Shown here in pieces: positions 614 to 64,000 of a DNA stretch of 64,000 nt. Each line of letters begins with the position of its first letter. Positions within the stretch are counted from its first letter, which is position 1. Below the pieces are notes generated by a model. That model was not told where the DNA came from and made no database searches. It saw nothing but the letters and a program-made list of their open reading frames with translations. Source of the stretch: Solirubrum puertoriconensis (GTDB lineage: Bacteria; Bacteroidota; Bacteroidia; Cytophagales; Hymenobacteraceae). The stretch spans positions 1,302,001 to 1,366,000 of the forward strand of contig NZ_LNAL01000008.1 in assembly GCF_001483135.1 (NCBI RefSeq), in the 5' to 3' direction. A program made the translations under genes and the position numbers.

Positions 614-1939
614 ATGGCTTCAACGCATCATCACGAACCTGTAACGGCTGAGTTTCTAGAACTCTCGCCTGCTGCTCGCCGTCGGTTCATCCTGTTCATT
701 GTTGCCGGGGTCGTGCTTATGGCCATCGGTCTCATCATGGCTGCCATGGGTATTGGTGGCGGCCACCACGAAGTAGCTGCTGCTGCTCATGGTGCCTCAG
801 AAGGTGCTGGTGCATCAGTTGAGCATGGTGGAGATCATGCTCCGGTATGGCTTCGCCGTTTGTTTGCCAGCCTGTGGCAAAGCAATACTTATCTAATTGG
901 TATCTCTGTTGTCGGCACAGTATTCGTAGCAATTAATACTGTTGCTTATGCAGGCTGGTCAATCATCGTTCGCCGCATTGCAGAAGCTTTCAGTGCTTGG
1001 TTGCTTCCTGGCTTGGTGATCATGCTGATTGTGTTCTTCGCGAGCGGGCACAACCTGTTCCACTGGCGTACTCACGGCATCATGGATCCGGGCTCTGAGA
1101 ATTACGATGCAATCATTGCTGGCAAATCAGGCTTCTTGAACTTGCCTTTCTATGTGATTCGTATGGTGCTGTTCGTACTAATCTGGTGGTTTTTCTCGGA
1201 ACGTTTGCGAAAGCTCTCTTTGGAAGAAGATCAACTAGGCGGTACGGGTTTCTGGGATAAGAGCATCAATGTGTCAGCGCTCTTCCTCGTACTGTTTGCT
1301 GTTACATCTTCAATTGCTGCTTGGGATTGGGTGATGTCTATTGACACTCACTGGTTCTCAACCATGTTCGGTTGGTATGTATTTGCTTCGTGGTGGGTAG
1401 CAGGTATTGCTGCGATTCTCCTGAGTGCTATATTCCTGAAGCAAGCCGGTTACTTGCGCTTTTTGAATTCGAACCACCTGCATGACCTAGGAAAGCTGAT
1501 GTTTGGCTTCAGCATCTTCTGGACTTACATCTGGTTCTCACAGTTCATGTTGATTTGGTACGCGAACCTCCCCGAGGAATCGGTGTACTTCAATCAACGT
1601 CTAGGTGGCTTCAATGGCCAATATACTTGGTTGTTCTTCTTCAACCTGATCATCAATTTCGCTTTCCCATTCTTGGCTCTAATGACCCGCGATGCTAAGC
1701 GTCAGATGATCATGCTGAAGATTGTGGCTATTGCGGTGCTGATTGGCCACTGGCTTGACTTCTATATGATGATCATGCCCGGAACGTTGAAGGCCGACAG
1801 TGGGTTTATCATAGAAATCGGTACTGCGCTGGTTTTCCTCGGCTCGTTCCTCCTCTTGATGACCAAACGTCTCTCGCAAGCTTCTCTGATTCCGGTTAAT
1901 CATCCCTTTGTAGAGGAGAGCGTACATCATACCACCTAA
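614..1939 (+). CDS. actF: Alternative complex III membrane subunit ActF (NrfD/PsrC-like)
   Basis: This 441-residue protein is a polytopic inner-membrane protein with about ten hydrophobic segments, beginning near residue 25 (FILFIVAGVVLMAIGLIMA). A His-rich loop lies between the first two segments. Segments such as FASGHNLFHWR and SIAAWDWVMSIDTHWFST fit the quinol-interacting NrfD-like subunits ActC and ActF. Its place directly after actE and before oxidase subunit II is the usual Bacteroidota order and favours ActF over ActC. It should take part in menaquinol oxidation and possibly proton translocation. Confidence 0.85.
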   Translation: MASTHHHEPVTAEFLELSPAARRRFILFIVAGVVLMAIGLIMAAMGIGGGHHEVAAAAHGASEGAGASVEHGGDHAPVWLRRLFASLWQSNTYLIGISVVGTVFVAINTVAYAGWSIIVRRIAEAFSAWLLPGLVIMLIVFFASGHNLFHWRTHGIMDPGSENYDAIIAGKSGFLNLPFYVIRMVLFVLIWWFFSERLRKLSLEEDQLGGTGFWDKSINVSALFLVLFAVTSSIAAWDWVMSIDTHWFSTMFGWYVFASWWVAGIAAILLSAIFLKQAGYLRFLNSNHLHDLGKLMFGFSIFWTYIWFSQFMLIWYANLPEESVYFNQRLGGFNGQYTWLFFFNLIINFAFPFLALMTRDAKRQMIMLKIVAIAVLIGHWLDFYMMIMPGTLKADSGFIIEIGTALVFLGSFLLLMTKRLSQASLIPVNHPFVEESVHHTT

Positions 1940-1981
1940 GCTCGCGCTGTTCGGACCACTGACTTTCACAACGTACAACTA

Positions 1982-3049
1982 ATGATTGCTCTCGGTATCC
2001 TTCTGGCGCTGGTGCTTCTGCTGGTCGTGTTCGGCCTCTTATTCCGGCTTCAGATCCTCACTTCCATTTTCTCTGGTAGCTATAACCGTCCTATTGGTCT
2101 TAGCAATCGAGTAAATGCCATCCTAATGCTGCTGTTCCTGATTTTAGGAGGCGCAGCGTTTGCTTACTCCTTTGTCGATAATTACGACAAAATGAATCCG
2201 CCGATTGCCTCTGTGCACGGCCTGCATACAGAGAAGCTTTTCTGGACCACGATGGTAGTTATCGGCATCGTGTTCGTGATTACGCAGGTAGCTCTGTTTG
2301 TTTACTCTTACCGCTACCAGTATAAGGAGGGGCGTCGCGCTTTCTTCTTTTCGCACAACAACAAAATCGAAATCATCTGGACGGTTATTCCGGCAGTTGT
2401 TATGTCGGGTTTGATTTTTGGTGGTTGGAAGGAGTGGACCAACATCATGGGACCTGCTCCCAAAGACGCCATCGAGGTCGAGATTATGGGTAAGCAGTTC
2501 AACTTCCTTGTTCGCTACCCAGGTCGTGACCAAAAGCTTGGCAACATCAACTACCGTTTGATCGATGCTACGAATGAGTTTGGCTTCGACTTGAACGATC
2601 AGCGTGGAATGGATGACTTCACAGCTGGTGAAGTGCACGTACCTAAAGGCCATCCGGTTTTAATGCGTATCCGTTCGCGCGATGTGTTGCACGCTGTATA
2701 TGCACCTCATTTCCGCGTACAGATGTATGCCGTACCCGGCATGCCTACCAAGTTCTGGTTCACTCCAACCAAGACTACTGACGAAATGCGGGCACAAACA
2801 GGAAATCCGAACTTCAACTACGAGATTGCCTGTAACCAGATCTGCGGTCGTGGTCACTTTGCTATGAAGGCGACTATTATCGTTGACGAGCCAGAAGACT
2901 ACATCGCCTGGTATTCGCAACAGAAGGCATTTGTAGAGCAGAACCCAGATGTACTAGCCGATTTCAAACAGAAAAAGGCTGCATCTGTTGAACAAGCACA
3001 GGCTGCTGCTGAAGTGCCCTCTACTGTTTCGGCCAAAGCCGCCCTCTAA
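1982..3049 (+). CDS. coxB: Cytochrome c oxidase subunit II (CuA subunit)
   Basis: The 355-residue protein has an N-terminal membrane segment, further hydrophobic segments at about residues 40-115 and a periplasmic cupredoxin domain. The binuclear CuA site is complete: an upstream His in VLHAVYAPHF, then CNQICGRGHFAMK with both Cys, His and Met. There is no C-terminal CxxCH, so this is not a cytochrome c fusion of the caa3 type. It should take electrons from cytochrome c (possibly ActE) and pass them to subunit I, which starts 27 bp downstream. Confidence 0.95.
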   Translation: MIALGILLALVLLLVVFGLLFRLQILTSIFSGSYNRPIGLSNRVNAILMLLFLILGGAAFAYSFVDNYDKMNPPIASVHGLHTEKLFWTTMVVIGIVFVITQVALFVYSYRYQYKEGRRAFFFSHNNKIEIIWTVIPAVVMSGLIFGGWKEWTNIMGPAPKDAIEVEIMGKQFNFLVRYPGRDQKLGNINYRLIDATNEFGFDLNDQRGMDDFTAGEVHVPKGHPVLMRIRSRDVLHAVYAPHFRVQMYAVPGMPTKFWFTPTKTTDEMRAQTGNPNFNYEIACNQICGRGHFAMKATIIVDEPEDYIAWYSQQKAFVEQNPDVLADFKQKKAASVEQAQAAAEVPSTVSAKAAL

Positions 3050-3076
3050 CGAGTAACTTAAAAGCACGCTTTTCTG

Positions 3077-4930
3077 ATGGCTGCATCTAATATTCCGATG
3101 GGCTCGGCGCCAACTAGTGCGCCGCACATCCAGCATCACGTAGCCGGCGACCACCACGACGAGCACCATGATGAAGGAAACTTCTTAACGAAGTATGTCT
3201 TCAGCACGGACCACAAGATGATTGCCAAGCAATTCTTGATTTCAGGTATTGCTTGGGCTTTTATCGGTGCTACGCTCTCGACGCTGTTCCGGATTCAGCT
3301 GGGTTGGCCTGATGCTCAACTTACTTGGCTTGAGCCTTTGTTGGGCCGCTGGGTAGAAGGAGGTAAGCTCAACCCCGAGTTTTACCTTGCACTGGTTACC
3401 ATGCACGGCACTATCATGGTGTTTTTCGTGCTGACTGCAGGCTTGAGCGGTACCTTCTCTAACTTCCTCATTCCCCTGCAGATTGGTGCCCGCGACATGG
3501 CATCAGGCTTCATGAACATGCTCTCGTTCTGGTTCTTCTTCCTGGCGGGTATTGTAATGTTCGTTTCTCTGTTCCTTGAAACAGGCCCTGCTGCCGCTGG
3601 TTGGACGATTTATCCCCCGCTGAGTGCGTTGCCGCAGGCAATTCCTGGCTCGGGTGCAGGTCAAACACTGTGGCTGGTATCAATGGCCCTATTCATTGTA
3701 TCGCAGCTCCTAGGTGGTGTTAACTACATCACAACTGTTATCAACCTACGGACTGCCGGTATGTCGATGGCTAAGCTGCCGCTGACAATTTGGTCGTTCT
3801 TCCTGACTGCTATTCTGGGTCTGCTTTCCTTCCCAGTACTGTTCTCAGCAGCATTGCTGTTGATCTTCGACCGTTCGTTCGGAACCAGCTTCTTCCTTTC
3901 TGATATCTACATTGGTGGTGAGGCTCTTAACCACGTTGGTGGTAGCCCGATCTTGTTCCAGCACTTGTTCTGGTTCCTAGGTCACCCGGAAGTTTACATT
4001 GTAATCATGCCGGCAATGGGTATCGTATCTGAAGTAATGGCAACGAATGCTCGTAAGCCAATCTTCGGTTACCGTGCCATGATTGGTTCGCTGATTGGCA
4101 TTTCGCTCCTCTCGTTCGTTGTGTGGGCCCACCACATGTTCGTAACAGGTATGAACCCCTTCCTCGGATCGGTGTTTATGTTCCTCACGCTCATCATCGC
4201 AGTACCTTCAGCAGTAAAGACCTTTAACTGGCTGGCTACGCTGTGGCGCGGTAATATCCGTTTCACCACTGCTATGATGTTTGCTATCGGTTTCGTTTCG
4301 CTGTTCGTTTCGGGCGGTCTAACGGGTATTATCCTAGGTAACGCTGCACTGGACATCCAGATGCACAACACTTACTTTGTGGTTGCTCACTTCCACTTGG
4401 TAATGGGCAGCTCTGCCTTCTTCGGCATGTTTGCTGGTGTTTATCACTGGTTCCCGAAGATGTTTGGTCGTATGATGGACGAGAAGCTAGGCTATGTACA
4501 CTTCTGGCTGACCATATTGGCTGCTTACTTAGTGTTCCTGCCGATGCACTACGTTGGTATTGCTGGTTTCCCACGCCGTTACTACGCCTACACCGCGTAT
4601 GAAACCTTCAACCAGTTTGCTGACCTGAATACGTTCATTTCGATTGCGGCAATCTTTGCCTTCTTCGCACAGTTCGTCTTCTTGTTCAACTTTGTCTACA
4701 GCATCTTCCGTGGCCGTCGGGCTACTGAGAACCCATGGAATTCGAACACGCTGGAGTGGACTACCCCAGTTGAGCCTGGTCACGGTAACTGGCCCGGTGC
4801 AATTCCTGCTGTCTACCGTTGGCCGTATGATTACAGCAAACCTGGTGCAGAGCAAGACTTTATTCCGCAACACATCCCGTACTCGCAGACTGTTTCTTCG
4901 AACCTGCCATACGAGCGCGAAATGGAATAA
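3077..4930 (+). CDS. ctaD: Cytochrome c oxidase subunit I (catalytic heme-copper subunit)
   Basis: The 617-residue protein has a His-rich N-terminal extension and twelve or more membrane helices. Family motifs are present: MHGTIMVFF (low-spin heme ligand), WFLGHPEVYI (CuB His and cross-linked Tyr), AHHMFVTGMNP (CuB His pair) and HNTYFVVAHFHLVMG (heme a3 and heme a ligands). The HPEVY Tyr and the K-channel region indicate an A-type oxidase. It is the last gene before a strong hairpin terminator at 4951-4988, so actEF-coxBA probably form the end of one transcript. Confidence 0.96.
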   Translation: MAASNIPMGSAPTSAPHIQHHVAGDHHDEHHDEGNFLTKYVFSTDHKMIAKQFLISGIAWAFIGATLSTLFRIQLGWPDAQLTWLEPLLGRWVEGGKLNPEFYLALVTMHGTIMVFFVLTAGLSGTFSNFLIPLQIGARDMASGFMNMLSFWFFFLAGIVMFVSLFLETGPAAAGWTIYPPLSALPQAIPGSGAGQTLWLVSMALFIVSQLLGGVNYITTVINLRTAGMSMAKLPLTIWSFFLTAILGLLSFPVLFSAALLLIFDRSFGTSFFLSDIYIGGEALNHVGGSPILFQHLFWFLGHPEVYIVIMPAMGIVSEVMATNARKPIFGYRAMIGSLIGISLLSFVVWAHHMFVTGMNPFLGSVFMFLTLIIAVPSAVKTFNWLATLWRGNIRFTTAMMFAIGFVSLFVSGGLTGIILGNAALDIQMHNTYFVVAHFHLVMGSSAFFGMFAGVYHWFPKMFGRMMDEKLGYVHFWLTILAAYLVFLPMHYVGIAGFPRRYYAYTAYETFNQFADLNTFISIAAIFAFFAQFVFLFNFVYSIFRGRRATENPWNSNTLEWTTPVEPGHGNWPGAIPAVYRWPYDYSKPGAEQDFIPQHIPYSQTVSSNLPYEREME

Positions 4931-4950
4931 TTAACGCTGCGCAATCATTG

Positions 4951-4988
4951 AAAAGGGAAGCCATAATCTGGCTTCCCTTTTCTTTTTC
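4951..4988 (+). terminator. Rho-independent terminator after oxidase subunit I
   Basis: A perfect 13-bp stem (4951-4963 with 4969-4981) and a 5-base loop end in a T-rich run. It lies 20 bp past the subunit I stop and separates the act-cox transcript from the heme-synthesis genes. Confidence 0.9.
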
Positions 4989-5036
4989 AACCTTTTGGGT
5001 AGGAACTTCGCGGCCTCATCTGGTTTTACTATTTAG

Positions 5037-6116
5037 ATGAACACACCAACTTTTGAACGCAGATTCACGCTTACTGCTACGCTTACATTAGTGGCAGTTT
5101 ACATACTGATTTTGGTAGGAGGCATTGTGCGGAGCACTGGCTCCGGTATGGGGTGCCCTGATTGGCCAAAATGCTTTGGTCAGTGGGTTCCGCCGACACA
5201 CATCAATGAATTACCTCCTAATTACAAGGAGGTTTACACTGCCCAAAGGGTAGCTAAAAACGAGCGTGTGGCAAACACACTTAAAAGTTTGGGCTTTACT
5301 GAGGTGGCAGCTAACATTTTCGCTCATCCCAATCAATATATCGAAACTGATTTTAACCCTGTCAAAACATGGATTGAGTATCTCAACCGCTTAACAGGTG
5401 TAATTATTGGTTTCCTGATTCTGCTGACAGTAGTTGTAGCGTGGCCATATCGGCGTAGTGACCCATTAATCTTCTGGGCATCGTTTCTTAGTTTCATTAC
5501 AGTAGGCGTACAGGGCTGGCTCGGGTCGTTGGTGGTATCTACTAATCTGCTACCGGTGATGGTGACTATCCACATGAGCTTGGCTCTAGTTTTAGTAGCC
5601 TTATTAATTTGGGCTATTGTGCGTGCTGGTAGCACACCTCAGATGCCATTTCTTCAGCAATTACCTAGTGGATTATCAGCATTACTCTTTGGCCTGACAG
5701 CTCTTACTTTCTTGCAAATCGTATTAGGTACGCAGGTCAGAGAAGATATTGACATGGTAGCGTTTGGGCTAAATTATCTACACCGCGACCAATGGATTGC
5801 GCAACTCGGCGGGGTGTTCAGGTTCCACCGAACCTTCTCTGCGGTGTTGCTTATTGGCAACGTGTATGCGGCCATAAAGCTGTTTCAAACGGGTGTGTCA
5901 ATGCTTAACAAACTGGCCTATGCTACACTCGCGGTACTGCTACTCGAAATAGTGGCTGGCATAACGCTCGCCTACTTTGCAATGCCTGCCGCAGCTCAGC
6001 CTATTCATCTTACCCTAGGAACGCTCTTGTTCGGAGTGCAATTTCTGGCGTTTGTGCAATACCGAAAGCTGACGCAGTTATCGCAACCCGTCGAGCATCC
6101 GGCAGTTGTTGCGTAA
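5037..6116 (+). CDS. ctaA: Heme A synthase (COX15/CtaA family)
   Basis: The 359-residue, eight-helix membrane protein opens with the family signature VGGIVRSTGSGMGCPDWP. His residues expected to bind heme occur in TIHMSLAL, RFHRTFSAV and PIHLTLGT, and the glutamate segment WIEYLNRLTG is present. It oxidises the methyl group of heme O to give heme A for subunit I. The N-terminal loop is longer than in Bacillus CtaA, as is usual for the COX15-like type. A promoter-like TAGGAACTTCGCGGCC lies about 40 bp upstream, and its stop codon overlaps the promoter of the next gene. Confidence 0.93.
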   Translation: MNTPTFERRFTLTATLTLVAVYILILVGGIVRSTGSGMGCPDWPKCFGQWVPPTHINELPPNYKEVYTAQRVAKNERVANTLKSLGFTEVAANIFAHPNQYIETDFNPVKTWIEYLNRLTGVIIGFLILLTVVVAWPYRRSDPLIFWASFLSFITVGVQGWLGSLVVSTNLLPVMVTIHMSLALVLVALLIWAIVRAGSTPQMPFLQQLPSGLSALLFGLTALTFLQIVLGTQVREDIDMVAFGLNYLHRDQWIAQLGGVFRFHRTFSAVLLIGNVYAAIKLFQTGVSMLNKLAYATLAVLLLEIVAGITLAYFAMPAAAQPIHLTLGTLLFGVQFLAFVQYRKLTQLSQPVEHPAVVA

Positions 6117-6130
6117 CTTTGCGGCCCCAT
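6114..6130 (+). promoter_or_regulatory. Promoter -7 element with CGGCCCC initial region, upstream of ctaB
   Basis: TAACTTTG at 6114-6121 matches the Bacteroidota -7 consensus TAnnTTTG and runs directly into CGGCCCCAT. The TAA of ctaA is the first three bases of the element. The same core recurs at 52282, 54723 and 56821. No clear -33 TTTG was seen at the expected distance. Confidence 0.65.
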
Positions 6131-6168
6131 TTGGAGCCGAATGCCCGGCTTGATTGTTTTTGCTGCTG

Positions 6169-7032: not shown

Positions 7033-7042
7033 CATTTCGGAT

Positions 7043-29187: not shown

Positions 29188-29578
29188 GGTGAACGACGGT
29201 GGAGATAAGCGGGAGCAGGACGATAAACACCAAGAAGTTAATAAATAAGAAGTGTGCGCAACAATACAGATAGTCTATTATAATTTTTAGCTAAAGTCAT
29301 GACCCTTACTCAGAATTATTAAAAACATAAACAAAGTTCTGTTTATTTGATGCAATGTATAAAAAATGCATAATATGTACTTTGGACATAATCAGGGAGT
29401 ATTTTACGCATTGATTCTTTGATATCACTTGATATTACTTTACATGATTACAACCCATTAACATTAAATAATATTGAGCAGTATATTAATTATCGAATAG
29501 ATCAAGCAAAACTAAGCTTCAACAAACGTACGGACAAAATAATATTTACATTATTAATTATAACTATAAACCATGAAA
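29188..29578. other. AT-rich spacer, no confident gene
   Basis: Composition drops sharply compared with both sides and there is no CCTAGG. A + strand frame at 29419-29712 begins with TTG and runs antisense into the broken lipoprotein gene; its composition is hydrophobic and unstructured and I do not accept it as a gene. The promoter of the MoxR operon is expected near 29190-29260, but I could not identify its -7 element with confidence. Confidence 0.6.
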
Positions 29579-30026
29579 TTACTCAGCATATTTTTTTGCA
29601 AGGGCATAGACCGTTTCATTTTTATAAATTATTTTATTGCTATTTTTATAAGTTATGCACTTATAGTCATTTGTGGAAAGCACTAAGGAGTCTTGTGTTA
29701 TTGTTCTTATGAGAAATATGGTGTTAGCAAGTCTGATGTGGCTGTCATCAATCATTGACCAACTTTGATCTGGTTCATGATCAAAGTTTTCTTCGTTACT
29801 ATCTATATACACACCATTCTTTTTTTTGTAAATCCTATAATGCTTATTATCGAATTTCCACCTTTCTGCATTCAATTTGCTTTGTTTTTTTTGCAGTAGA
29901 GTAATTACATACTTTTAGAGCATGAACAAGCCAGAAATCATTATTCGAATTTAAAATTTTGCTACCAGACTTAGACTTGCAAGAAGCTGTCATTAAAAGT
30001 GTTGTATACAGCAAAAGCCTTAACAT
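29579..30026 (-). pseudogene. Frameshifted lipoprotein gene, possibly lipocalin-like
   Basis: An ATG at 30026 opens a lipoprotein signal (LLLYTTLLMTASC) followed by KSKSGSKILNSNNDF, but this frame stops at about 29847. The downstream part continues one frame over (KLNAERWKFDNKHYRIYKK ... to the stop at 29579). The two frames meet at a run of eight A on the coding strand (T-run at 29885-29892). Removing one A would give a single protein of about 143 residues. The body (WKFDNKHYRIY ... IFLIRTITQDSLVLS) resembles lipocalin-like lipoproteins. It is AT-rich, unlike its neighbours. It may be a real pseudogene, a slippage (phase-variable) gene or a sequencing error. Confidence 0.65.
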
Positions 30027-30046
30027 TTTATTACCTTAAAAGCGAA

Positions 30047-35549: not shown

Positions 35550-35572
35550 GATGCTCTGTTGCTGGAAGTAAC

Positions 35573-35683
35573 GTCATGTCGAGCTTGCCGGGGCATCTCG
35601 CGTGCTGATACTAGGGACTGATCAGCTGTTCAGCAAGAAGATTACTACTTGGCGCGATTCCTTGGTTTCGCTCGGAATGACGT
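35573..35683. repeat. MITE-like or REP-doublet element, copy B
   Basis: The left end reads GTCATGTCGAGC ... CATCTCGCGTGCTGA and the right end, inverted, reads GTCATTCCGAGCGAAACC, giving imperfect terminal inverted repeats around about 40 unrelated bases. The left end matches copy A at 24116-24152. It lies between scoB and scoA and has no coding capacity. Confidence 0.7.
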
Positions 35684-35695
35684 GTTATTAAAAAG

Positions 35696-46340: not shown

Positions 46341-46353
46341 GGGGCACCAGGCT

Positions 46354-47028
46354 ATGAACGAGATGTTGCAATCGGTTATCGAAGCCGCCACGTGGATTGA
46401 TAAGGTCAATCCAAGGTTTGAAGATAACTTTTACCGAAGCGAGGAACTGCGGCCTGGCTTCCTCATAGCCAACAGTCAGTACCACAAGGAGGCACTTGCT
46501 GTAACGGTGCAGAAGCGGCGTGAGTATCTGCAGAATCCAGCTACTGATTTATTGACGCTGGAGGAAGTTGCCGAAAAGGGCAAGCTAATACTGATTGATC
46601 CGCTGGATTCGGAGCTAGACGGCGGAGCCGAAGTCTACTCGCAGGGGTATTTTGACTTGTGGGACTGCGCCCCTTGGGATACTTGGGTTGCGTTTGGCAG
46701 TGCGACGCTAAAGCAGGCAGCGGATTCAGCGCTAATAAATCCTTTTCTATCCCAGCTAAAACATTTTCAAGCGACATCGTTCGATGCGTTGATAGCTTGG
46801 GTGCCCAATACCCAACTCAATTAGGTGTACTCTGGACGAGAAGTAAGCCTGCGTGAGCAGAATATCGAGTGGTGGAGCGGTACAGATGCTAATGCTCCCT
46901 GTGACTCGGTATTGAACAGATTATTTGCCTCGCCTACCGGGCTCATATTCGAGGAAATAGCCCACGAGAAGCTCATCGGCCAGCGGCTGGAAATGATCAA
47001 CAAAGCCAAGTCAGTGGTACTGCACTGA
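46354..47028 (+). pseudogene. Uncharacterised gene interrupted by an in-frame TAG
   Basis: An ATG at 46354 opens 156 codons ending in a TAG at 46822-46824. The very same frame then continues for 68 codons to a TGA at 47026-47028. The first part is rich in Trp and acidic residues (FDLWDCAPWDTWVAFGSA, then FDALIAWVPN); the second continues naturally (SLREQNIEWWSG ... IAHEKLIGQRLEMINKAK). One C-to-T change (CAG to TAG) would explain the break in a protein of about 224 residues. No family was recognised. It is lower in GC and has no CCTAGG, unlike its neighbours. Two separate short genes are less likely. Confidence 0.6.
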
Positions 47029-47035
47029 AATTCCA

Positions 47036-53390: not shown

Positions 53391-53402
53391 TACTGAATTT
53401 GT

Positions 53403-53452
53403 AAAAAGAAAAGAGAGAGGCGTACGTAATGTGCGCCTCTCTCTTTTCTTTA
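53403..53452 (+). terminator. Long terminator after the desaturase gene
   Basis: A perfect 18-bp stem (53405-53422 with 53434-53451) with purine on the 5' arm and pyrimidine on the 3' arm. The 3' arm itself supplies the T-rich tail. Confidence 0.9.
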
Positions 53453-53474
53453 AGATGACCTTAACCATTAGCTG

Positions 53475-53975
53475 ATGAGGCATTTCCCTAAAGTGTGCTC
53501 CGGGCTGCTAAGCTTAATTATTGTATTGGCTTCCTGCCAAAAGAAAAGCGAAGTGTCAGCTGTGTATACAAGTCAGTGCCTACATAACATTGTTTATCAA
53601 TACGTAGCAGTAAAAAGTAAGAAGCCAAATCAGTATTTGTCTTTCGTAACTGTACGCATTGATAAAGGTGGTGACTCTACGCTAGTCGTTTTAGAAAGCG
53701 TTATGCCTGTTATCAATAAGAATGAAGAGTTCATTGCTTATGACAGTGTGTTGAATGTGCCAGTCTATATAGTTGGAGACGCTAATGAGTTGGTTGAAGG
53801 TAATAGTGCTGTTGTTCCAAACGATGTGAAAGGCTACAACCAGAAGCTACAGCGTGATCCGCCTCTCATCTATCCTAAAGAGTTTGATGGTTGGGCCATG
53901 TCGTTCAAAGCTGATAAGGTTCGTTTATTCCGGGCTAATCAATTAGACGATAACTACATAAAATATTGCAAGTGA
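53475..53975 (+). CDS. AT-rich lipoprotein of unknown function, first of a pair
   Basis: The 166-residue protein has a lipoprotein signal (LLSLIIVLASC, then QKKSE). The mature part looks beta-rich (VAVKSKKPNQYLSFVTVRID, then DSTLVVLESVMPVI) and ends NYIKYCK. Codon use is clearly more AT-rich than in flanking genes and it has no CCTAGG, which suggests recent gain together with the lipoprotein gene downstream. Function unknown; no family recognised. Confidence 0.7.
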   Translation: MRHFPKVCSGLLSLIIVLASCQKKSEVSAVYTSQCLHNIVYQYVAVKSKKPNQYLSFVTVRIDKGGDSTLVVLESVMPVINKNEEFIAYDSVLNVPVYIVGDANELVEGNSAVVPNDVKGYNQKLQRDPPLIYPKEFDGWAMSFKADKVRLFRANQLDDNYIKYCK

Positions 53976-54031
53976 AACAGATGGCTGTTCTTGCGTCAAC
54001 CGAGGCGGGCGTAAAGATTGGTTTAAACAAA

Positions 54032-54060
54032 ACGACCTACTTTCAACGAGGTAGGTCGTC
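54032..54060 (+). terminator. Hairpin between the two AT-rich lipoprotein genes
   Basis: The stem ACGACCTAC (54032-54040) pairs with GTAGGTCGT (54051-54059) around a 10-base loop; CCTGTTTATT follows. A probable terminator with a weak T-tract. Confidence 0.65.
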
Positions 54061-54094
54061 CTGTTTATTCAGATTATTATAGATAACAACACAC

Positions 54095-54697
54095 ATGAAT
54101 CGAGCAGCTGCATTTGTTTTAAAAAGCATTCTTCCTTTAGCATTGCTCGGGGCATGCAAAGAGAAAGAGGCACCTGTCAAAACACGAAAGTCATACGGTT
54201 TTGAAGTTGAGCTTAGCACTTGGAATGGCTTTTCTGGTAGCAATACATATTATCGGGTCAAGCATAAGGTGTACTGGTATGAGATAGAGAGTTATGCAGG
54301 TGGGCAAGCGGCTACTGATGACACCACAGCAGTAATGTTTGTCCGTCGGGTTAAGAAACAACGCCTGTACGATGAGAGAAATAGCTTTTGTGTTGATACT
54401 ATTTTCTTCGGTTTAAACAGATATCAGGCAGACACTTTGTTAGCGTTGACCAGACCGATATTTGAGCAACTAAATACAAGCAATGTTGATACTGTTGGAC
54501 GCATCAGCTATTTCCAAACTGATGATAATGGAGGCAGGGTGATGCTTCACATCAATGGGCAGAAGCTTTCCATTGAATTTCATTCACTTAGCCTTTCTGA
54601 TGTCGGGAAAAAATCAGCTCAGTTTAGTGCCATCGAGAGCCGCTTAAAGCAATGGTTTGAAAGGCCAAGCGCAAGTGGAAAGCCGCCTTGCAGGTAG
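54095..54697 (+). CDS. AT-rich lipoprotein of unknown function, second of a pair
   Basis: The 200-residue protein has a lipoprotein signal (SILPLALLGAC, then KEKEA). Beta-strand patterns alternate through the middle (YYRVKHKVYWYEIES), and a C-terminal helix (FSAIESRLKQWFER) ends the protein. It shares the low GC of its neighbour but no clear sequence similarity. Its 3' end lies 25 bp before the rpsA promoter. No family recognised. Confidence 0.7.
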   Translation: MNRAAAFVLKSILPLALLGACKEKEAPVKTRKSYGFEVELSTWNGFSGSNTYYRVKHKVYWYEIESYAGGQAATDDTTAVMFVRRVKKQRLYDERNSFCVDTIFFGLNRYQADTLLALTRPIFEQLNTSNVDTVGRISYFQTDDNGGRVMLHINGQKLSIEFHSLSLSDVGKKSAQFSAIESRLKQWFERPSASGKPPCR

Positions 54698-54722
54698 CTT
54701 TTCGTTTCTAGCTCTATTTCAG

Positions 54723-58082: not shown

Positions 58083-58181
58083 TTAGCCGCCCCAGCGGAA
58101 AAATAACTCAAACAGCACGATTAAGAGTAGGGCCAGTAGCACGAGCAAGCCGCCGGCGCGTCGGTCGTTGGTCGGGTTCAT
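58083..58181 (-). CDS. 32-residue single-helix membrane peptide
   Basis: The ATG at 58181 opens MNPTNDRRAGG followed by one continuous hydrophobic helix (LLVLLALLLIVLFELFF) and RWGG. It is a plausible real microprotein because charge is confined to the ends and the helix has membrane length. It could be a holin-like or toxin-like peptide, or an unrelated small protein. Confidence 0.45.
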   Translation of the reverse strand: MNPTNDRRAGGLLVLLALLLIVLFELFFRWGG

Positions 58182-58223
58182 ATATAGTTGTATTCGTGCC
58201 GTGCGCCGCCTAGGTTCGCCGCC

Positions 58224-58517
58224 ATGGAACCGCCTTACTGGTATTTGCCCATTGGCCCGCAAGGCCAACCCCCGCGCCTGCTCACCTGGTCGGAGTACTC
58301 CGACAACCCCTTTGGCAAGTGGGTCGGCATCAACTACAGCATGCTGCTGCCCATTACGTTCCTGGCCGAGGTGGATTGGACCTACGAATTTGCCGACCCC
58401 AAGCACCAAGCGCGGTGGGAGGAGTCAAAGCGCTACCTGCGCCGGCCCGGTGTGTACGAGTACTTGCACATCCCCATCGAGGAGCGGCCGCTGTGGTCAG
58501 CCAAAAAGCACAGCTAG
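58224..58517 (+). CDS. Small protein of unknown function
   Basis: The ATG at 58224 (MEPPYWYLPIGPQGQPP) gives 97 residues, rich in Trp, Tyr and Pro. LLTWSEYSDNPFGKWVGIN and ADPKHQARWEESKRYLRRP suggest a compact soluble domain; there is no signal peptide. An earlier in-frame start at 58188 is possible. It sits in a block of small accessory genes after tRNA-Cys. No family recognised. Confidence 0.6.
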   Translation: MEPPYWYLPIGPQGQPPRLLTWSEYSDNPFGKWVGINYSMLLPITFLAEVDWTYEFADPKHQARWEESKRYLRRPGVYEYLHIPIEERPLWSAKKHS

Positions 58518-58599
58518 CTTTACTGTCGATGCTGCGCCTAGGCGAGTTCAAGCATGAATTGCTGGGTGCCGTGCGTTGCGCCAAGACAGCGCCGTGTGA

Positions 58600-58779
58600 A
58601 TGGTCACGTGGCGCGGTCGCACCCGCAACCTGTACCGGATTGATAACGGCTACTGGAAGGCTTCCTGCGAAGCCGAACTAGAAGTCGGCGCGGCGCGGAA
58701 AGCTCGACCCGGGCGCCCCTCGGCTAAGCAATTGTCACCAGCCAAACGTGGCAACCAACCCGCTGAACAAGGCAACTGA
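58600..58779 (+). CDS. 59-residue basic small protein (tentative)
   Basis: The ATG at 58600 opens MVTWRGRTRNLYRIDNGYWK, then a Lys/Arg/Pro-rich tail and a TGA at 58777. The first 25 residues have gene-like composition. The tail overlaps the start of a minus-strand small ORF by 45 bp. Weak evidence only. Confidence 0.35.
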   Translation: MVTWRGRTRNLYRIDNGYWKASCEAELEVGAARKARPGRPSAKQLSPAKRGNQPAEQGN

Positions 58780-58851
58780 TCCCACAGCCAGGATCCAAGG
58801 CAAACCGGCAGTGAGGCGCTTCTTTCTCCTTGACTTTTTGCGACGGCTCAT
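58735..58851 (-). CDS. 38-residue basic, single-helix membrane peptide
   Basis: The ATG at 58851 opens MSRRKKSRRKKRLTAG followed by one hydrophobic helix (LPWILAVGSVALFSGLVA) and TFGW. The positive-inside N-terminus followed by a short helix is typical of small membrane proteins and some type I toxins. Overlaps the tentative small + strand gene. Confidence 0.45.
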   Translation of the reverse strand: MSRRKKSRRKKRLTAGLPWILAVGSVALFSGLVATFGW

Positions 58852-59347
58852 AAACGAAAGTTTATCGCAAGTTGCGCAGGTTAAATCACTGTTCTGTATG
58901 TAGTTACTGGATGCGTATTCCTGCTATCCGAGTACAACGAATTCTTATTTGACCGGAGGCCAAACCAAGCGTAGGGTGCGCCATCACATCGACAAGTTGG
59001 GCCGTTGCTGCGCCTAGGTAATCAGTGGCCATGCGGACAGATTAGTCCCCGCGTCTCGTCAACCACCATCCCCTCCCGACGCCTCTGCATACCGGCTGGG
59101 CAGGTGGCAGCGCACAAGCCTTCTACAGGAGGAGATTATATATAAATCCTTAGATGTCACAGCCACGCTGTACTGTGAAGCGATTCCGCGATAAGCGGTG
59201 AGCCAGTAACAATTGGCCTATTGTACTATTCTGGTTCTGTTGACTAATTCTAATGTCCCCTGTACGGGTAAACCTTCCTGTTAACCGAGACAGAAATGAT
59301 TGAGGTTTGTGTATTCCGTAACCACAACCTTATTACCAATCTTCGTT
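58852..59347. other. Spacer before the Cys-rich lipoprotein gene
   Basis: About 500 bp with no credible ORF. It contains one CCTAGG (59012-59017), an AT-rich patch (TATATATAAATCC near 59140-59152) and a TTTG at 59307-59310 that could be the -33 element of the downstream gene. The -7 region is not convincing. Confidence 0.5.
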
Positions 59348-60034
59348 ATGAAAAAGCTAGTACTGGTCCTGGCAACTGCCATCGCCTCTTCGATGGCGCT
59401 GTACTCCTGCCAAGACCAAGCTGTTAAACCCAACGCGCCGACGGCCGTGGCAACCAGCCGCAACGTTGAGGCAACCATCCCAACCGCCGGCAAAGGCGGT
59501 GTGACGGTCAAGAGCGTGGAGCGCGTGGATGCCGAGTCGGAAATCGTGCAGCATTACCTAAGCTCAGAAAGCGCCCACGCGCTGGAGGCTTCCGGAGCAG
59601 GCAAGATCCAATTGGAAGAAATTCTCAGCGTTACGTTGGCCGTCGAAGGCGAGGACACCGGATTCCGGGCCTTGGCATTCCGCTTGGAGCGGCCGGATGG
59701 CACTAAAGCGGATTTGTACGCGTACTACCAGGCCGAGAGCCCGAAGACGTTCAACGGCCTGATCGTGTCGGTAAAGCACGACGGGGACAACTCGGGGGTG
59801 GTAAGCACCTTCTCGGACGACAACCAATTAATCAAGAGCTTGACGATCAAAGAAGGCATCGCCGTTGAGCAGGTGCTGGGCGGCGATTTGCAAGGGCGGG
59901 CCACCTGCTACGGCAAGTGCATGCAAGCGATCAAGCTTGAACAAGAGAACGATCCGTTGTGGGACTTGGCTTGCAACGTGAACCAACTCGGTTGCTTCTT
60001 GCTCTATTGGAGCATTTGCAACTACCGGTGCTAA
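59348..60034 (+). CDS. Lipoprotein with Cys-rich C-terminal tail
   Basis: The ATG at 59348 (MKKLVLVLATAIASS) gives 228 residues; the frame extends upstream to 59300 without need. The lipobox is ASSMALYSC, then QDQAVK. The middle domain is alpha/beta (EILSVTLAVEGEDTGFRALA). The last 45 residues hold six Cys (ATCYGKCMQAI, then DLACNVNQLGCF, then SICNYRC). A surface protein carrying a disulfide-bonded, peptide-like tail, perhaps released as an antimicrobial or signal, is one reading; similarity to the halocin C8-like group is only in Cys pattern. Confidence 0.7.
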   Translation: MKKLVLVLATAIASSMALYSCQDQAVKPNAPTAVATSRNVEATIPTAGKGGVTVKSVERVDAESEIVQHYLSSESAHALEASGAGKIQLEEILSVTLAVEGEDTGFRALAFRLERPDGTKADLYAYYQAESPKTFNGLIVSVKHDGDNSGVVSTFSDDNQLIKSLTIKEGIAVEQVLGGDLQGRATCYGKCMQAIKLEQENDPLWDLACNVNQLGCFLLYWSICNYRC

Positions 60035-60038
60035 AATC

Positions 60039-60094
60039 TGGCATGAAGACAAAACGGCCGCCTGGTACCAGGCGGCCGTTTTGTCTTCATGCCA
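60039..60094. terminator. 56-base perfect palindrome, bidirectional terminator
   Basis: The two 28-bp arms are exactly complementary around GGTACC, with no spacer. AAAACGGCCGCC and its complement GGCGGCCGTTTT give T-tracts within each arm. It separates the convergent Cys-rich lipoprotein and endolysin genes. Confidence 0.9.
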
Positions 60095-60111
60095 TAATAG
60101 CAAATCAGGTC

Positions 60112-60642
60112 CTAAACTTCGTTAATTGAGGTGTGTGCGCCCTTCGGGCTAAGCCACACGCGCCGCACGTTGGCGGGCTGGGCCGAGGTCCACGCCGTGC
60201 GCCGGGCTTGCGTAAGCCGGGTTTTCAGGATGCGCACAATGCACACGCAGTTGGCTTGGTTGCCGCCCAGCACGTGGTAGTGGGTCGCGTCTTCGCCCAC
60301 GTAAAGGCCCACGTGGCCCCCGCCTTGCCGATCGAACACCAGCACGTCGCCGAGCATGGGCGTGGTCACGCCGGTACCCCACTTGAGCCAGCTCTTGGCC
60401 CGGGCCGCATCGATGTGCACGGGCTTGCCGGCGCGCTTAGCCACGATGCCCATAAACGTGCCGCACCAGGGCGTTTCGTCGTCGTTGATCCAGGTAAAGC
60501 CCAGCTCCTTCAGCCAGCCTAGGATAATTGGGTTGTGCTGCGGCCCGGCTTTCTCAGCCACGCCGAACAGCTTCAGGGCCTCGACCAGGATTTTCGGGGC
60601 GCCTTCGCTTTGCAGCCAAGCGTAGGCAGAGGGTAGTGCCAT
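60112..60642 (-). CDS. Phage-type endolysin (TIGR02594/CHAP-like amidase)
   Basis: The ATG at 60642 (MALPSAYAWLQSEGAPK) gives 176 residues. The catalytic Cys is in DETPWCGTFMGIVAKRAG, and the His is in LGDVLVFDRQGGGHVGLYVG. This is the small single-domain peptidoglycan hydrolase family (TIGR02594) found as phage lysins. There is no signal peptide, so export would depend on a holin, and holin-like genes lie just upstream in transcription. It is the last gene of the minus-strand lysis module. Confidence 0.85.
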   Translation of the reverse strand: MALPSAYAWLQSEGAPKILVEALKLFGVAEKAGPQHNPIILGWLKELGFTWINDDETPWCGTFMGIVAKRAGKPVHIDAARAKSWLKWGTGVTTPMLGDVLVFDRQGGGHVGLYVGEDATHYHVLGGNQANCVCIVRILKTRLTQARRTAWTSAQPANVRRVWLSPKGAHTSINEV

Positions 60643-60647
60643 GACGG

Positions 60648-61031
60648 TTAGCGCAGCAAGGTATAAGCGCCGATAGCTGCGGGCAAGCCGACGCCGATGC
60701 CGATCACCCAGCCGCGGCGGCGGGCCTTGACTTTCCACAGCGTCGTCGCCTGCAGCTGCGCTACCAGCGCGCCGTTCAGCTCCTGGCTGCGGGCATCAAG
60801 CTGGCCGACGCGGGTTTGGCTCAGCACCAATTGCCGACCTAGGGCCGCGGCTTCCGTGCGCGCTGCGGCGTATTGGCGGCGCACCACCGGCAGGGCGCGT
60901 AGCGAGTCGGCATTCTTGGCCGCTTGCACCCGCGGCGTGCAGATTTGGCTAGCGGCCGTAGGGGTTTGCGAGAAAGCCGGCAAGGCTGTCATCGCTGAGG
61001 CCAGCAGCAGGAGTGCGGCGAATCGTCTCAT
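60648..61031 (-). CDS. Signal-peptide coiled-coil protein, spanin-like
   Basis: The ATG at 61031 (MRRFAALLLLASAMTA) gives 127 residues: signal peptide (cut near AFSQ), a helical, coiled-coil-prone middle (RRQYAAARTEAAALGRQLVL, then VGQLDARSQELNGALV) and a C-terminal membrane helix (WVIGIGVGLPAAIGAYTLL). Its first 83 bp overlap the end of the upstream gene in another frame, like the nested Rz/Rz1 spanin genes. Spanin function is inferred from context and topology. Confidence 0.6.
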   Translation of the reverse strand: MRRFAALLLLASAMTALPAFSQTPTAASQICTPRVQAAKNADSLRALPVVRRQYAAARTEAAALGRQLVLSQTRVGQLDARSQELNGALVAQLQATTLWKVKARRRGWVIGIGVGLPAAIGAYTLLR

Positions 61032-61455
61032 AGTCGCGTTGGGCTTGGTGGCCCGCCAGGCGGGCGCGGTGGATGGTGTCGTTGTTGGCAATCCAGGCCT
61101 GCAGGGCGCGGTTATCGGCGCGCAGGCTGTCGAGCTGCTGTTGCTGCCGGGTGAGCTGTGCCGTGCGTTGGTCGGTACACGCCAGCGCACCTATAGAGAG
61201 CAGCAGCACCAGGAGCACCGCGGTGCCGGCGGGTGGTTCAAGCGGCGGCACGTCTTCGCGGGCCACGGTGGTTTCAGTGCGGGCGCCGTCCTTGCTTAGG
61301 ATGCCGATGGCGCCACCTAGCACCGTCAAAACGCTAATCATTTCGCCGGCTGTCAGCTTGCCCTGCCAGAAGGCAACGCCGAAGAAGAGCAGCAGCACGC
61401 CGGCCGCGGTGGTTTTCCAGTTCGTGACGAACAGGCGGGTAAGGAGTGTTTTCAT
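60949..61455 (-). CDS. Holin-like and coiled-coil lysis protein
   Basis: The 168-residue protein has two N-terminal helices (TTAAGVLLLFFGVAFWQG and AGEMISVLTVLGGAIGIL) like small phage holins. After a linker comes AVLLVLLLSIGALAC, which reads as a lipobox or third helix, then a coiled coil (AQLTRQQQQLDSLRADNRAL) and a polar tail. It may combine holin and i-spanin functions, or contain an internal lipoprotein start. It overlaps the following gene by 83 bp. Confidence 0.6.
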   Translation of the reverse strand: MKTLLTRLFVTNWKTTAAGVLLLFFGVAFWQGKLTAGEMISVLTVLGGAIGILSKDGARTETTVAREDVPPLEPPAGTAVLLVLLLSIGALACTDQRTAQLTRQQQQLDSLRADNRALQAWIANNDTIHRARLAGHQAQRDYETIRRTPAAGLSDDSLAGFLANPYGR

Positions 61456-61459
61456 CGGA

Positions 61460-61819
61460 CTATTTGTGCGAGGTCATCCAGGTATCGTGCACGGCGGCGC
61501 GCTGCTCGAGCGAGTTCAGACGCACCTCGATGTCGCGGTGGGTTTTGGCCGCGTCGGCCTTGGCCGCTTCGAGGTCGGCCACCCGCTGGCGCAACGCCTC
61601 GTTGCGCACGGCTTCGACCTCCACCGTGCTGGCCAGCCGCGCCAGCTTCTCGTTCGTGGACTTGATCTCCACGGCCGCGTTGCTGATGATGTAAGTGAGC
61701 AGGCTTTGCGCCAGCAGGAACAGCAGCGACAAGCCGCCGGCCAACACCCAGTTGCGGGTCTTTAGGTTTTCGCGCTCCGCGGCCGTTTCGGCGACGGAGT
61801 CTTGAGTTAATGGGGCCAC
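61460..61819 (-). CDS. Single-helix coiled-coil membrane protein of the lysis module
   Basis: The 119-residue protein has a polar N-terminus, one helix (WVLAGGLSLLFLLAQSLLTY) and a long coiled coil (LARLASTVEVEAVRNEALRQ, then VADLEAAKADAAKTHRDIEV). The stop is 4 bp before the start of the holin-like gene, so they are cotranscribed. Similar small TM-coiled-coil proteins are common in phage lysis and tail-proximal modules. Confidence 0.65.
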   Translation of the reverse strand: MAPLTQDSVAETAAERENLKTRNWVLAGGLSLLFLLAQSLLTYIISNAAVEIKSTNEKLARLASTVEVEAVRNEALRQRVADLEAAKADAAKTHRDIEVRLNSLEQRAAVHDTWMTSHK

Positions 61820-61927
61820 AAGCAGATCGGCGCTGGGATGGGGAGTATACCCGACGAAGTTACCCGCACACCTTCAGGCTATTGGCTTGGCAAGCGGATC
61901 CTTGTTGCACGCACCCTTATAGGGCAC

Positions 61928-61955
61928 AAAAAAGCCCCGCCAAATGGGCGGGGCC
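61928..61955 (-). terminator. Terminator of the acyltransferase gene
   Basis: On the minus strand the stem GCCCCGCC / GGCGGGGC is followed by six T. It isolates the acyltransferase from the lysis genes. Confidence 0.85.
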
Positions 61956-61976
61956 TATGAATGAGTAGTATTTTGT

Positions 61977-62993
61977 TTAACCAGCGATATACCTGGCTAA
62001 TGGTGATTTCTGGATTAGCCACGCAATGACACATGATATAGCCAAGCATATGAGACTCATCAGCGGTATACCTAGTAGCGGTTCTATTGTGTAGCCATTG
62101 ATTCCGTTGTGATGGAATACTAAAAGCACCAATGCATGGCTTAGATAAATAGTGAAGCTGTTAGCTGCAATGAAAGTAGTTATTGGTCCGAGAGCACGTG
62201 GCGCGGCATTTCGTACCAAATGAAAGATGCCGGCAGCCATCAGCGCTACGTTTGGCGTCAAGTAGTTAAAGTACGTGCCGGTGAACTGCTGATTCTGCAA
62301 CGTCACGTAGTACGTGCCCACGACGGTGATGATAAAGCCGATGCCGATGGCCAACCACGCCAATGGCCGGTTAACGTACTGCACCTGGGCCAGGTAGTAT
62401 CCCAGTACCAGATAGCCGATATAGCCGCCGAAGTATTGCAACTCGATAGCAACGCGGAACTTGTACAGCAGCGGGTAGCTCGCGAATAAAGCGACAGCCC
62501 AGATAACTAAGAAATAATGAATCTCTTGCCTTGGAGCGGCTCTGATCCAGCGTCCTAGAATCGGAATGAATAGATACAGGCCTATGATCATGTACAGATA
62601 CCAGAGGTGAAATTCTGTGCCGAGCTGCAACTGCCCATAAGACCACTTAACGGTCTTCCCTATCCCAAGCGGGCCCTCAGCCTGGTCCTTCCGGTAGAGA
62701 TTATACAGCAAGTAGATCAGGCTCCAGAACGCAGCAGGCGCTAGGATGCGGCTCATGCGACGCGATAAGTACTCGCCTAGGGGCCTATCAGAAGGCAGCA
62801 CCAGTGCGCCGCTGAGCATCACGAACAGGGGCACGCAAGCCCGCACGGCGCTATCGAGAACGTTGCCTACCCAAAAGTTATAGCTGCCCACCGGATGGGA
62901 AGTGCCGGGGGCTGCGTAGTGAAGAAAGATTACGCTGCAGGTAGCTAGGACGCGTAATAAATCAGGCCAATACCTCGTCTGTACTTGTGACAT
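61977..62993 (-). CDS. Acyltransferase family 3 membrane protein (OafA-like)
   Basis: The ATG at 62993 (MSQVQTRYWPDLLRVLA) gives 338 residues with ten helices. DLLRVLATCSVIFLHYAAPG is the family signature with the conserved His, and RRMSRILAPAAFWSLIYLL, EFHLWYLYMIIGLYLFIPIL and NSFTIYLSHALVLL are typical. Such enzymes O-acylate surface glycans. In prophages they often change the host surface antigen and block re-infection, which is plausible here between lysis genes and a tail-type gene. Confidence 0.88.
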   Translation of the reverse strand: MSQVQTRYWPDLLRVLATCSVIFLHYAAPGTSHPVGSYNFWVGNVLDSAVRACVPLFVMLSGALVLPSDRPLGEYLSRRMSRILAPAAFWSLIYLLYNLYRKDQAEGPLGIGKTVKWSYGQLQLGTEFHLWYLYMIIGLYLFIPILGRWIRAAPRQEIHYFLVIWAVALFASYPLLYKFRVAIELQYFGGYIGYLVLGYYLAQVQYVNRPLAWLAIGIGFIITVVGTYYVTLQNQQFTGTYFNYLTPNVALMAAGIFHLVRNAAPRALGPITTFIAANSFTIYLSHALVLLVFHHNGINGYTIEPLLGIPLMSLICLAISCVIAWLIQKSPLARYIAG

Positions 62994-63065
62994 AAGGGGC
63001 AAATATCGGCATACACCTCCGTCTATTGAATCGCTTTTGGTGACGGTTCTTCGTAGTATTGTAGT

Positions 63066-63203
63066 ATGCTACACAGTGTATTTGCTTGGTTTCGCCGTGC
63101 CTGGGTGATATTCACCACGCCTCTAGGTGACGTGCCTCACATACCCTACCCGGCCGATGAAGAGGAGTGGGCGCGAGTAAAGAAGGAGGATTTGCCCACC
63201 TAA
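63066..63203 (+). CDS. 45-residue small protein opposite to the phage genes (tentative)
   Basis: The ATG at 63066 opens MLHSVFAWFRRAWVIFTTPL, then an acidic-basic tail (ADEEEWARVKKEDLPT) and TAA. It is an amphipathic start with a charged end. It lies alone on the + strand in the gap between two minus-strand genes, so a regulatory or anti-phage microprotein is possible, but support is weak. Confidence 0.4.
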   Translation: MLHSVFAWFRRAWVIFTTPLGDVPHIPYPADEEEWARVKKEDLPT

Positions 63204-63234
63204 CCACTACGGCTAGGCAGGCATCCTCTTGGCT

Positions 63235-64000
63235 TTACGTCGGAGTGTTGACGGCACTTGGCCCGTCGATTCTCGGAGCTTCCACATAGTTGCTCGTGAT
63301 ACTTAGGCTGCAGTCGATCCAAATTGGAAAGGTTACCGCGCCGTCCCACGTTCCTAGCGGAGTTGTTTCGTTGTCGAGGTACACATCTACCTTATCGACT
63401 TGCACGTCGAAGGTCAGTTCTACTGCACCTACTCCACGGGTAACACCACTGCGCAGCTTACCTAGGTTGGCGCCCATGCTCCACTTGGAGTACGCCGTGT
63501 CCTCGAAAAACAGGGCGTAACGCATATCGGTAAATGAGACGCCTGAGGCTTGGTTATTCAAGCCTACCATCTGCGAACCTGAATTACCAGCCCGCACCTT
63601 CAGTTTCCCAGGTGCTGCCAGCGCCTTGCTTGAGTTAGCTCCCGCGCCGAAGGATTCATTGCCACTTACGCCTACGCGCTTGGTGGTCGGATTGTACGTC
63701 ACGATGTTGCCCGCGATGTTGACCCAATCTACCTCCTGCTCAGTATTAACAGGCGGAGCAGGTGCACCGTACTGCGAACGATTTGGCAGGGCTGTGCCTT
63801 TGGTCAAGCTCAGGATGTAGTCGGCCACGATGCGGCCTAGCACGTTGAAGCCGTTGCCGTTCAAGTGCACGAGCATGTAGCGCACCCCGCCATCTTCCGA
63901 ATAGAAGTAGTTGGTGTTGGCCAGATAGCCCGTTGCTTCGTAGCCCGCTGGGGCGTTGGCCGTTAATAGTTCGGCGTAGGAAGAGTACCCCGCATCCTGC
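63235..64000 (-). CDS. SGNH-hydrolase/tail-type protein, N-terminus outside window
   Basis: The frame is open to the window edge, so the gene continues beyond it; the GTG at 63885 is internal. LVHLNGNGFNVLGRIVADYI near the visible start matches the last block of SGNH/GDSL hydrolases with the catalytic His. After a linker (RSQYGAPAPPVNTEQEVDWV) a beta-rich C-terminal domain follows (KLKVRAGNSGSQMVGLN, then VTRGVGAVELTFDVQVDKVD), as in phage tail or fibre proteins. A tail-associated depolymerase or deacetylase is the best guess. Confidence 0.65.
   Translation of the reverse strand, partial: QDAGYSSYAELLTANAPAGYEATGYLANTNYFYSEDGGVRYMLVHLNGNGFNVLGRIVADYILSLTKGTALPNRSQYGAPAPPVNTEQEVDWVNIAGNIVTYNPTTKRVGVSGNESFGAGANSSKALAAPGKLKVRAGNSGSQMVGLNNQASGVSFTDMRYALFFEDTAYSKWSMGANLGKLRSGVTRGVGAVELTFDVQVDKVDVYLDNETTPLGTWDGAVTFPIWIDCSLSITSNYVEAPRIDGPSAVNTPT

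Follow-up and report, generated by a model that had tools for sequence, protein, structure and literature searches.

What keeps a single six-base word recurring throughout a bacterial chromosome was the question raised by a 64 kb stretch of contig NZ_LNAL01000008.1 of Solirubrum puertoriconensis (positions 1,302,001 to 1,366,000; hereafter the window), in which a first-pass annotation had noted about 80 copies of the palindrome CCTAGG and a resemblance to HIP1 of cyanobacteria. The genome of the window is denoted G000, and G and L numbers denote the other genomes and loci compared. The analysis showed that CCTAGG is the core of a real, actively maintained and lineage-specific genome tag, which has the form [C/G]CCTAGGT in this clade. 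The best reading is a self-tag similar to the highly iterated palindromes (HIPs) and to DNA uptake sequences (DUS), kept by a putative fast-evolving DNA-reading factor and possibly acting in DNA uptake or recombination.

Excess of CCTAGG in the window and the genome

Exact counting produced 82 CCTAGG sites in the window, the first at 1486 and the last at 63461, and these included all nine positions that had been given as examples. The number expected from base composition was 19.6, in agreement with the earlier estimate of about 20. The ratio of observed to expected copies (O/E) was 7.1 with a second-order Markov model and just 1.37 in the window with a fourth-order model, the latter being low because the pentamers of that model themselves consist of the word. 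The whole genome (4,804,721 bases in 8 contigs) contained 6212 copies, which is 1.29 per kb or 1293 per Mb, compared to 136 copies of the reversed control word GGATCC. Other CTAG hexamers showed no excess in 464 kb of G000, with O/E of 0.39 for GCTAGC, 0.63 for ACTAGT and 0.37 for TCTAGA. The observation made at first was confirmed by these counts and proved larger than had been stated. Within 158 genes, 208 coding sites were observed compared to 18.8 ± 4.9 after synonymous-codon shuffling (30 runs, highest run 30 sites), an 11-fold excess. As a separate observation, CGATCG was strongly avoided in G000 (O/E 0.16).

Distribution among related genomes

The host is a Hymenobacter-clade bacterium of the Bacteroidota and not a cyanobacterium, and the named loci best matching a window protein belonged to Hymenobacter (best 80 of at least 587 matches). 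Two of the seven genus relatives were high in CCTAGG (5678 copies in G005 and 5325 in G006) and five were low (123-249). Among 204 family genomes including G000, 9 had more than 5000 copies, 4 had 1209-2331, 8 had 507-888 and 183 had fewer than 500. The high genomes belonged to two genera of the classification used (g1 and g5), and the top count among 38 order-level genomes was 807. Hymenobacter setariae Fur1 was also high, with 35 copies in one 22 kb stretch. The tetramer CTAG was rare, at O/E 0.11-0.22, in the three low members of the genus that were sampled, and in G158, G058, G109 and G190 it came close to or exceeded the expected frequency, so the general avoidance of CTAG has changed too. 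In many g5 family genomes GGATCC was nearly absent (0-10 copies per genome), as if avoided under restriction.

Conservation and origin of the sites

A total of 264 kb of G000 was compared, of which 171 kb aligned to the stretches fetched from G005 and 178 kb to those from G006 with 88-89% identity; genes were taken to be open reading frames (ORFs) from a mechanical call that included a third-position filter. CTA codons within CCTAGG were kept at 125/166 in G005 and 113/170 in G006, compared to 88/364 and 70/365 for CTA elsewhere, so that retention inside the word was approximately three times higher. CCT codons showed a similar outcome, with 16/23 (G005) and 17/23 (G006) kept within the word compared to 103/333 and 114/328 elsewhere. 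Non-coding sites were kept in 31 of 37 cases in G005 and 29 of 38 in G006 (76-84%), compared to 45% for other non-coding hexamers. For bare hexamers the contrast was smaller (CCTAGG 0.725 in G005 and 0.672 in G006, all hexamers 0.51 and 0.53), and TGCGCA was kept more often than CCTAGG (0.738 in both genomes); of the two tests, the one with matched codons gives the fair comparison. Overall, the aligned sequences indicate that CCTAGG is actively kept against mutation.

The shift in CTAG frequency between low and high members would agree with an origin in chemistry or codon bias, either a mutational process that produces CTAG or a favouring of the codons CTA-GGT. Such an origin is nevertheless very improbable, as the 11-fold excess was obtained at fixed codon usage, CTA outside the word was poorly conserved, non-coding sites were kept as well and, as described below for G006, the same codon change depended on the orientation of the word.

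Of the window sites, 53 could be aligned in one or more of three low relatives, and at only 2 of these did a low relative have CCTAGG. Sites aligned with their flanks to these relatives were gap-free over ±10 in 33/36, 34/36 and 39/40 cases, and therefore the sites likely arose by point substitution in place and not from an inserted element.

Asymmetry and orientation of the word

The label of palindrome was correct for the core CCTAGG only, since the favoured extended word in this clade, [C/G]CCTAGGT, is asymmetric. Among 675 sites of G000, an outer T was found on exactly one side in 581, on both sides in 28 (ACCTAGGT) and on neither in 66, and the T on the two outer sides was far from independent.

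A short asymmetric word in large excess could be a recombination-control site (Chi) or a directional segregation site (KOPS), and some loci were indeed skewed in orientation (5 vs 19 in L053 and 18 vs 5 in L048; heterogeneity chi-square 31.5 over 21 G000 loci). In G158, orientation correlated with GC skew at r -0.67, a value from five loci only. However, over the 21 sampled G000 loci the orientation was balanced (299 vs 282) with no correlation to GC skew (r 0.01), and neighbouring sites were evenly paired (FF 158, RR 138, FR 132, RF 132). A Chi or KOPS function was rejected for this lack of overall orientation bias and is most improbable.

Change of specificity in G006

A total of 41 sites common to the other two genomes were missing in G006, and 32 of these were CCCAGG or CCTGGG. 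The same class of loss accounted for 2/20 in G000 and 6/31 in G005. When sites were oriented and codon-matched, CTA had changed to CTG in G006 at 21/64 in one orientation compared to 2/31 in the other (Fisher p 0.004). Outside the word, 31/89 CTA codons of G006 had changed to CTG, so the in-word rate in the first orientation was about neutral, and only 2/64 showed any other change. In the same orientation, CTA had changed to CTG at 0/45 in G000 and 4/50 in G005. From this dependence on orientation, position 4 of the word acts in the sister genome G006 as though free to vary, for one strand sense only and on modest counts. The pattern is as if the specificity of a DNA-reading protein had drifted. 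A Vsr-type change (CTAGG to CCAGG), for which no search for Vsr was made, was set aside in view of the difference that the orientation of the word makes to the change.

Other words in relatives

Other members of the family carried other words, namely CCCTAGGG, ACCTAGGT, CTAGGCCA, CTACCCCC and GGGGCCCC. Most of these dialects were called from one stretch of 20-22 kb each. The flanks around the word were mixed in G158, G173 and H. setariae, while G058 preferred CCCTAGG[G/C] and both G109 and G190 preferred A[C/G]CTAG[C/G]T. G115, although high by count, had just 13 sites in the 40 kb sampled and no clear dialect. CTAGGCCA was carried by G121, G119, G196 and G203, and Hymenobacter sp. BT559 had the word CCCTAGC/GCTAGCC. 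CTACCCC(C) was found in G052, G146 and G166 and more weakly in G169 (z 8.1), CCTACCC in G099, and GGGGCCCC/GGGCCC in H. nivis, H. caeli and G055 (L135, L142 and L246) at 2.1-2.8 per kb. Several of the dialect words share CTAG; CTACCCC has only CTA in common with them and GGGGCCCC has no part of it.

Among 75 surveyed stretches, each about 20 kb long, 31 reached z 10 or above, and L137 was removed from these as a probable repeat. The 13 stretches chosen for their CCTAGG count were all positive (13/13). The other 62 were not random, being named loci from one protein scan together with genomes of few contigs, and 17 of them were positive without L137; 8 of these had the listed kinds of word, and in the other 9, from six loci of Pontibacter and three g3 genomes, the words were TA-rich. 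G002 and L125 in this survey appear to be one genome, and the short loci L149 and L150 were left out. A wider comparison took in 46 loci longer than 15 kb (L152-L204, from other Hymenobacteraceae and other Cytophagales), shorter loci being left out, and seven passed z 8, which were six Pontibacter loci and L204.

Two further kinds of word were recorded in the survey. In L137 (Hymenobacter sp. BT188), the dispersed word GCCCCCCAG has runs of C and a conserved A-rich flank; it is probably a repeat family and, for its likeness to a repeat element, was not counted among the dialects. The TA-rich words AGGTATAG, AAGTATAA, AACTATAG and TATATA were in large excess in Pontibacter L156, L157, L159, L161, L162 and L163 and in g3 L261, L262 and L264. 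Their spacing had a coefficient of variation (CV) of 1.0-1.6, and some lay mostly outside ORFs (AAGTATA in L157 with 14/52 inside, CTATAG in L162 with 12/38 inside). The TA-rich words may be a separate phenomenon, since they are clustered and partly lie mostly outside ORFs.

CCTAGG, TAGGCCA and CTACCCC ranged from evenly to randomly spaced (CV 0.63-1.0). GCTAGCC was clustered in BT559 (CV 1.7) and GGGCCC slightly so in H. nivis and H. caeli (1.15-1.16). CCTAGG itself was slightly more evenly spaced than random (CV 0.86), with 1.5% of gaps under 30 bp compared to 4.3% expected. Even spacing, the strong conservation of non-coding sites and the palindromic dialects of G058 and G109 would all suit a chromosome-organising or nucleoid protein, with selection keeping a binding site for it approximately every 0.7 kb. 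This explanation is unlikely, though the least so of the alternatives: no clear strand bias was present in the sampled loci, and five relatives of the same genus manage without the word, so such binding would need to be non-essential or to make use of another word.

Search for methyltransferases

In cyanobacteria, Elhai 2015 described alternate HIPs, found one or more putative methyltransferases suited to every highly overrepresented word and described a model of methyl-directed repair, the cause of HIP1 being still debated (PMC4390886). Applied to the present word, a methyltransferase would mark CCTAGG, and mismatch repair guided by the mark would create and keep the sites. The density of CCTAGG lies within the range of HIPs (about 500-2500 copies per Mb), and one word replaces another as in cyanobacteria (PMC4390886). 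Methyltransferases of some kind were also present in other genomes with high or intermediate counts.

The first-pass annotation had suggested a link to methylation and a matching methyltransferase, and this was not borne out among the five Pfam families searched in G000. Profile searches of the G000 assembly gave 0 matches for PF00145, PF02384, PF02086 and PF07669. The sole PF01555 methyltransferase adjoined a SmaI-type nuclease on a 12.5-kb contig (L001, C4). Close homologues of this enzyme (69-71% identity) were found in G166, G146, G161 and G185, all low in CCTAGG, and a search of the eight other genomes with more than 5000 copies gave no match in G005, G109, G115, G173 and G190 and weak matches only in G006, G058 and G158 (E 6e-5 to 1e-9). 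The enzyme was rejected as the cause because its occurrence does not track CCTAGG. Its relatives were also seen on 308 plasmid records, with Burkholderia, Xanthomonas and Klebsiella the most frequent. PF02384 had matches in 7/8 genomes searched, all except G000. PF02086 was found in 1/14 genomes searched (the low G003) and in 0/12 with high or intermediate counts, and PF07669 in 25/28, as commonly in low genomes (14/15) as in the others (11/13). The asymmetric flanks and the drift do not suit a palindromic methyltransferase either, and the HIP-type model is accordingly quite unlikely for CCTAGG, more so than a nucleoid protein. A DNA-binding or repair factor behind the word, as had also been suggested, is possible.

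Proposed mechanism

The word is kept in G000 while some relatives carry another, which points to a protein reading the genome's own tag. As a general statement, maintenance driven by recognition of the tag is highly probable. In the mechanism proposed, a putative sequence-reading protein outside the five methyltransferase families tested in G000 would favour its site by weak selection or biased conversion, and drift in the specificity of this reader would lead to changes of dialect. Incoming homologous fragments bearing the tag would be preferred in uptake or recombination by a route without type IV pili, and this preference would let the tag accumulate by molecular drive. A lineage tag kept in this way, mechanism included, is given a probability of roughly 0.4. 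The most likely role is self-recognition during DNA uptake or recombination, for which a bias in uptake is predicted, although this role is somewhat more doubtful than the tag itself. It is tentatively proposed that Hymenobacteraceae have a so far undescribed self-tagging system, in which a putative fast-evolving DNA-reading protein, neither a tested methyltransferase nor a type IV pilus receptor, writes and rewrites a 7-8-bp lineage tag into whole genomes with approximately one or two sites in each kb, and G006 would show this protein in the course of changing its specificity. No description of CCTAGG iteration in Hymenobacter was found in the literature searched, most subscription papers being outside the reach of that search.

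Several points weigh against the reading as a self-tag kept by such a protein. No reading factor was identified among the five methyltransferase families and PF00437 searched; PF00145 was searched in G000 only, and methyltransferase families beyond the five could exist. The PF00437 ATPase of type IV pili and type II secretion was present in 0/28 genomes with 14/14 controls positive, competence genes not being searched, so the known DUS machinery is missing and uptake by type IV pili was rejected. Weak selection and biased conversion are inseparable with the present data. The word looks palindromic in G058 and G109 and would there better fit a dimeric DNA-binding protein, and G006 sites with other flanks also showed the change of CTA to CTG (5/19). 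The uptake cores named in PMC1939737 have 9-10 bp and are longer than the CCTAGG word. In favour of the reading, a species of the Bacteroidota, Riemerella columbina, was reported to show a preference for its own DNA during transformation (Huang 2021; PMC7965970). The top k-mers of this species are A-rich, so that an uptake word is not proven for it.

Should the tag serve as a barcode in uptake, bacteria that lack the usual pilus ATPase would have such a barcode, and gene flow would meet a natural barrier in it. In addition, the 204 family genomes allow the tag to be compared with gene content, which turns an old puzzle into a test by comparative genomics.

Sites and site-free segments of the window

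The 82 sites lie within 1486..63466 and, without assignment of strand, have their first bases at 1486, 3709, 3976, 4333, 6014, 7081, 7333, 9143, 10397, 10543, 11835, 12280, 12519, 12669, 13860, 14765, 14849, 16475, 16871, 17184, 18784, 18825, 19523, 19768, 21135, 21477, 22221, 22445, 23835, 24052, 24394, 24456, 25222, 25629, 26382, 27260, 27697, 28325, 30084, 30501, 30708, 30804, 32378, 33726, 34325, 34431, 35242, 36264, 36536, 36929, 37412, 38179, 38988, 41083, 42226, 42388, 43063, 43549, 44002, 44752, 45635, 45873, 47155, 48415, 48924, 49600, 50647, 50801, 50887, 52051, 52086, 53201, 56594, 56791, 56985, 58209, 58537, 59013, 60518, 60838, 62776 and 63461. The extended form [CGT]CCTAGGT was present on one strand at 62/82 and the palindrome ACCTAGGT at 4/82. 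For the 61 sites inside mechanical ORFs, the reading frames were as first described, with 53 as xxC-CTA-GGx, 8 as CCT-AGG and none with TAG in frame.

Three foreign-looking stretches had been described as free of the word. They correspond to segments unaligned in the fetched G005 and G006 stretches, all with 0 CCTAGG and no strand assigned, at 29216..30044 (AT-rich, 29% GC), 46342..47033 and 53393..54718 (42% GC). Zero sites over these 2.83 kb had a P of about 0.03, and three further unaligned segments carried 2, 2 and 8 sites; the segment with 8 reaches the end of the window and may reflect the limit of the fetched stretches. For both reasons, avoidance of CCTAGG in foreign stretches is suggestive only. 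In the window, density was 1.06 per kb in unaligned and 1.33 in aligned DNA. A higher density in "accessory" DNA (1.66 vs 1.37 per kb) was not used, unaligned stretches being partly a sampling effect.

An imperfect inverted repeat of about 115 bp was also observed between genes at 35570-35685 (RNA fold z -2.8). Copies of its start occur at many positions in the low relatives of the genus and at a few in G000, and it looks like a dispersed repeat of the REP or MITE type.

Comparison with known systems

Restriction is expected to lower the number of its sites. Restriction-modification of the AvrII type recognises the same hexamer CCTAGG (PMC1939737), and unlike in such a system the number of sites was raised and no matching methyltransferase was found among the five families in G000.

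The tag shares several features with the DUS of Neisseriaceae and Pasteurellaceae, which are thousands of copies, an asymmetric word, occurrence on both strands and relatives without the word (PMC3630211); in part of the relatives the words may also be dialects around a common core. Dialects with a shared core, and some relatives without any word, were described for uptake sequences by Frye 2013 (PMC3630211). The CCTAGG tag differs in being shorter (7-8 bp), in the absence of the PF00437 ATPase from all 28 genomes and in that the words of some relatives do not share the CTAG core.

Compared to HIPs, the host belongs to the Bacteroidota, the extended word is asymmetric in this clade and no cognate methyltransferase was found in G000 among the five Pfam families. 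The likeness to HIP1 drawn at first thus stood for density, upkeep and replacement of the word in relatives, while the methylation link was not supported where tested and the label of palindrome proved too simple. Neither the cyanobacterial HIP model nor the uptake-sequence model of Neisseria applies as it stands, because none of the tested methyltransferase families explains the word in G000 and the pilus ATPase expected for uptake sequences was absent from the 28 genomes searched. Similar to HIP1 and the alternate HIPs (GCGATCGC, GGCGCC, GGGATCCC and others), CCTAGG is a short GC-rich word in huge excess at about one copy per kb, and other words take over in single lineages (PMC4390886). A HIP1-like phenomenon is thereby found in a second phylum, present or absent among close relatives and with several different words.

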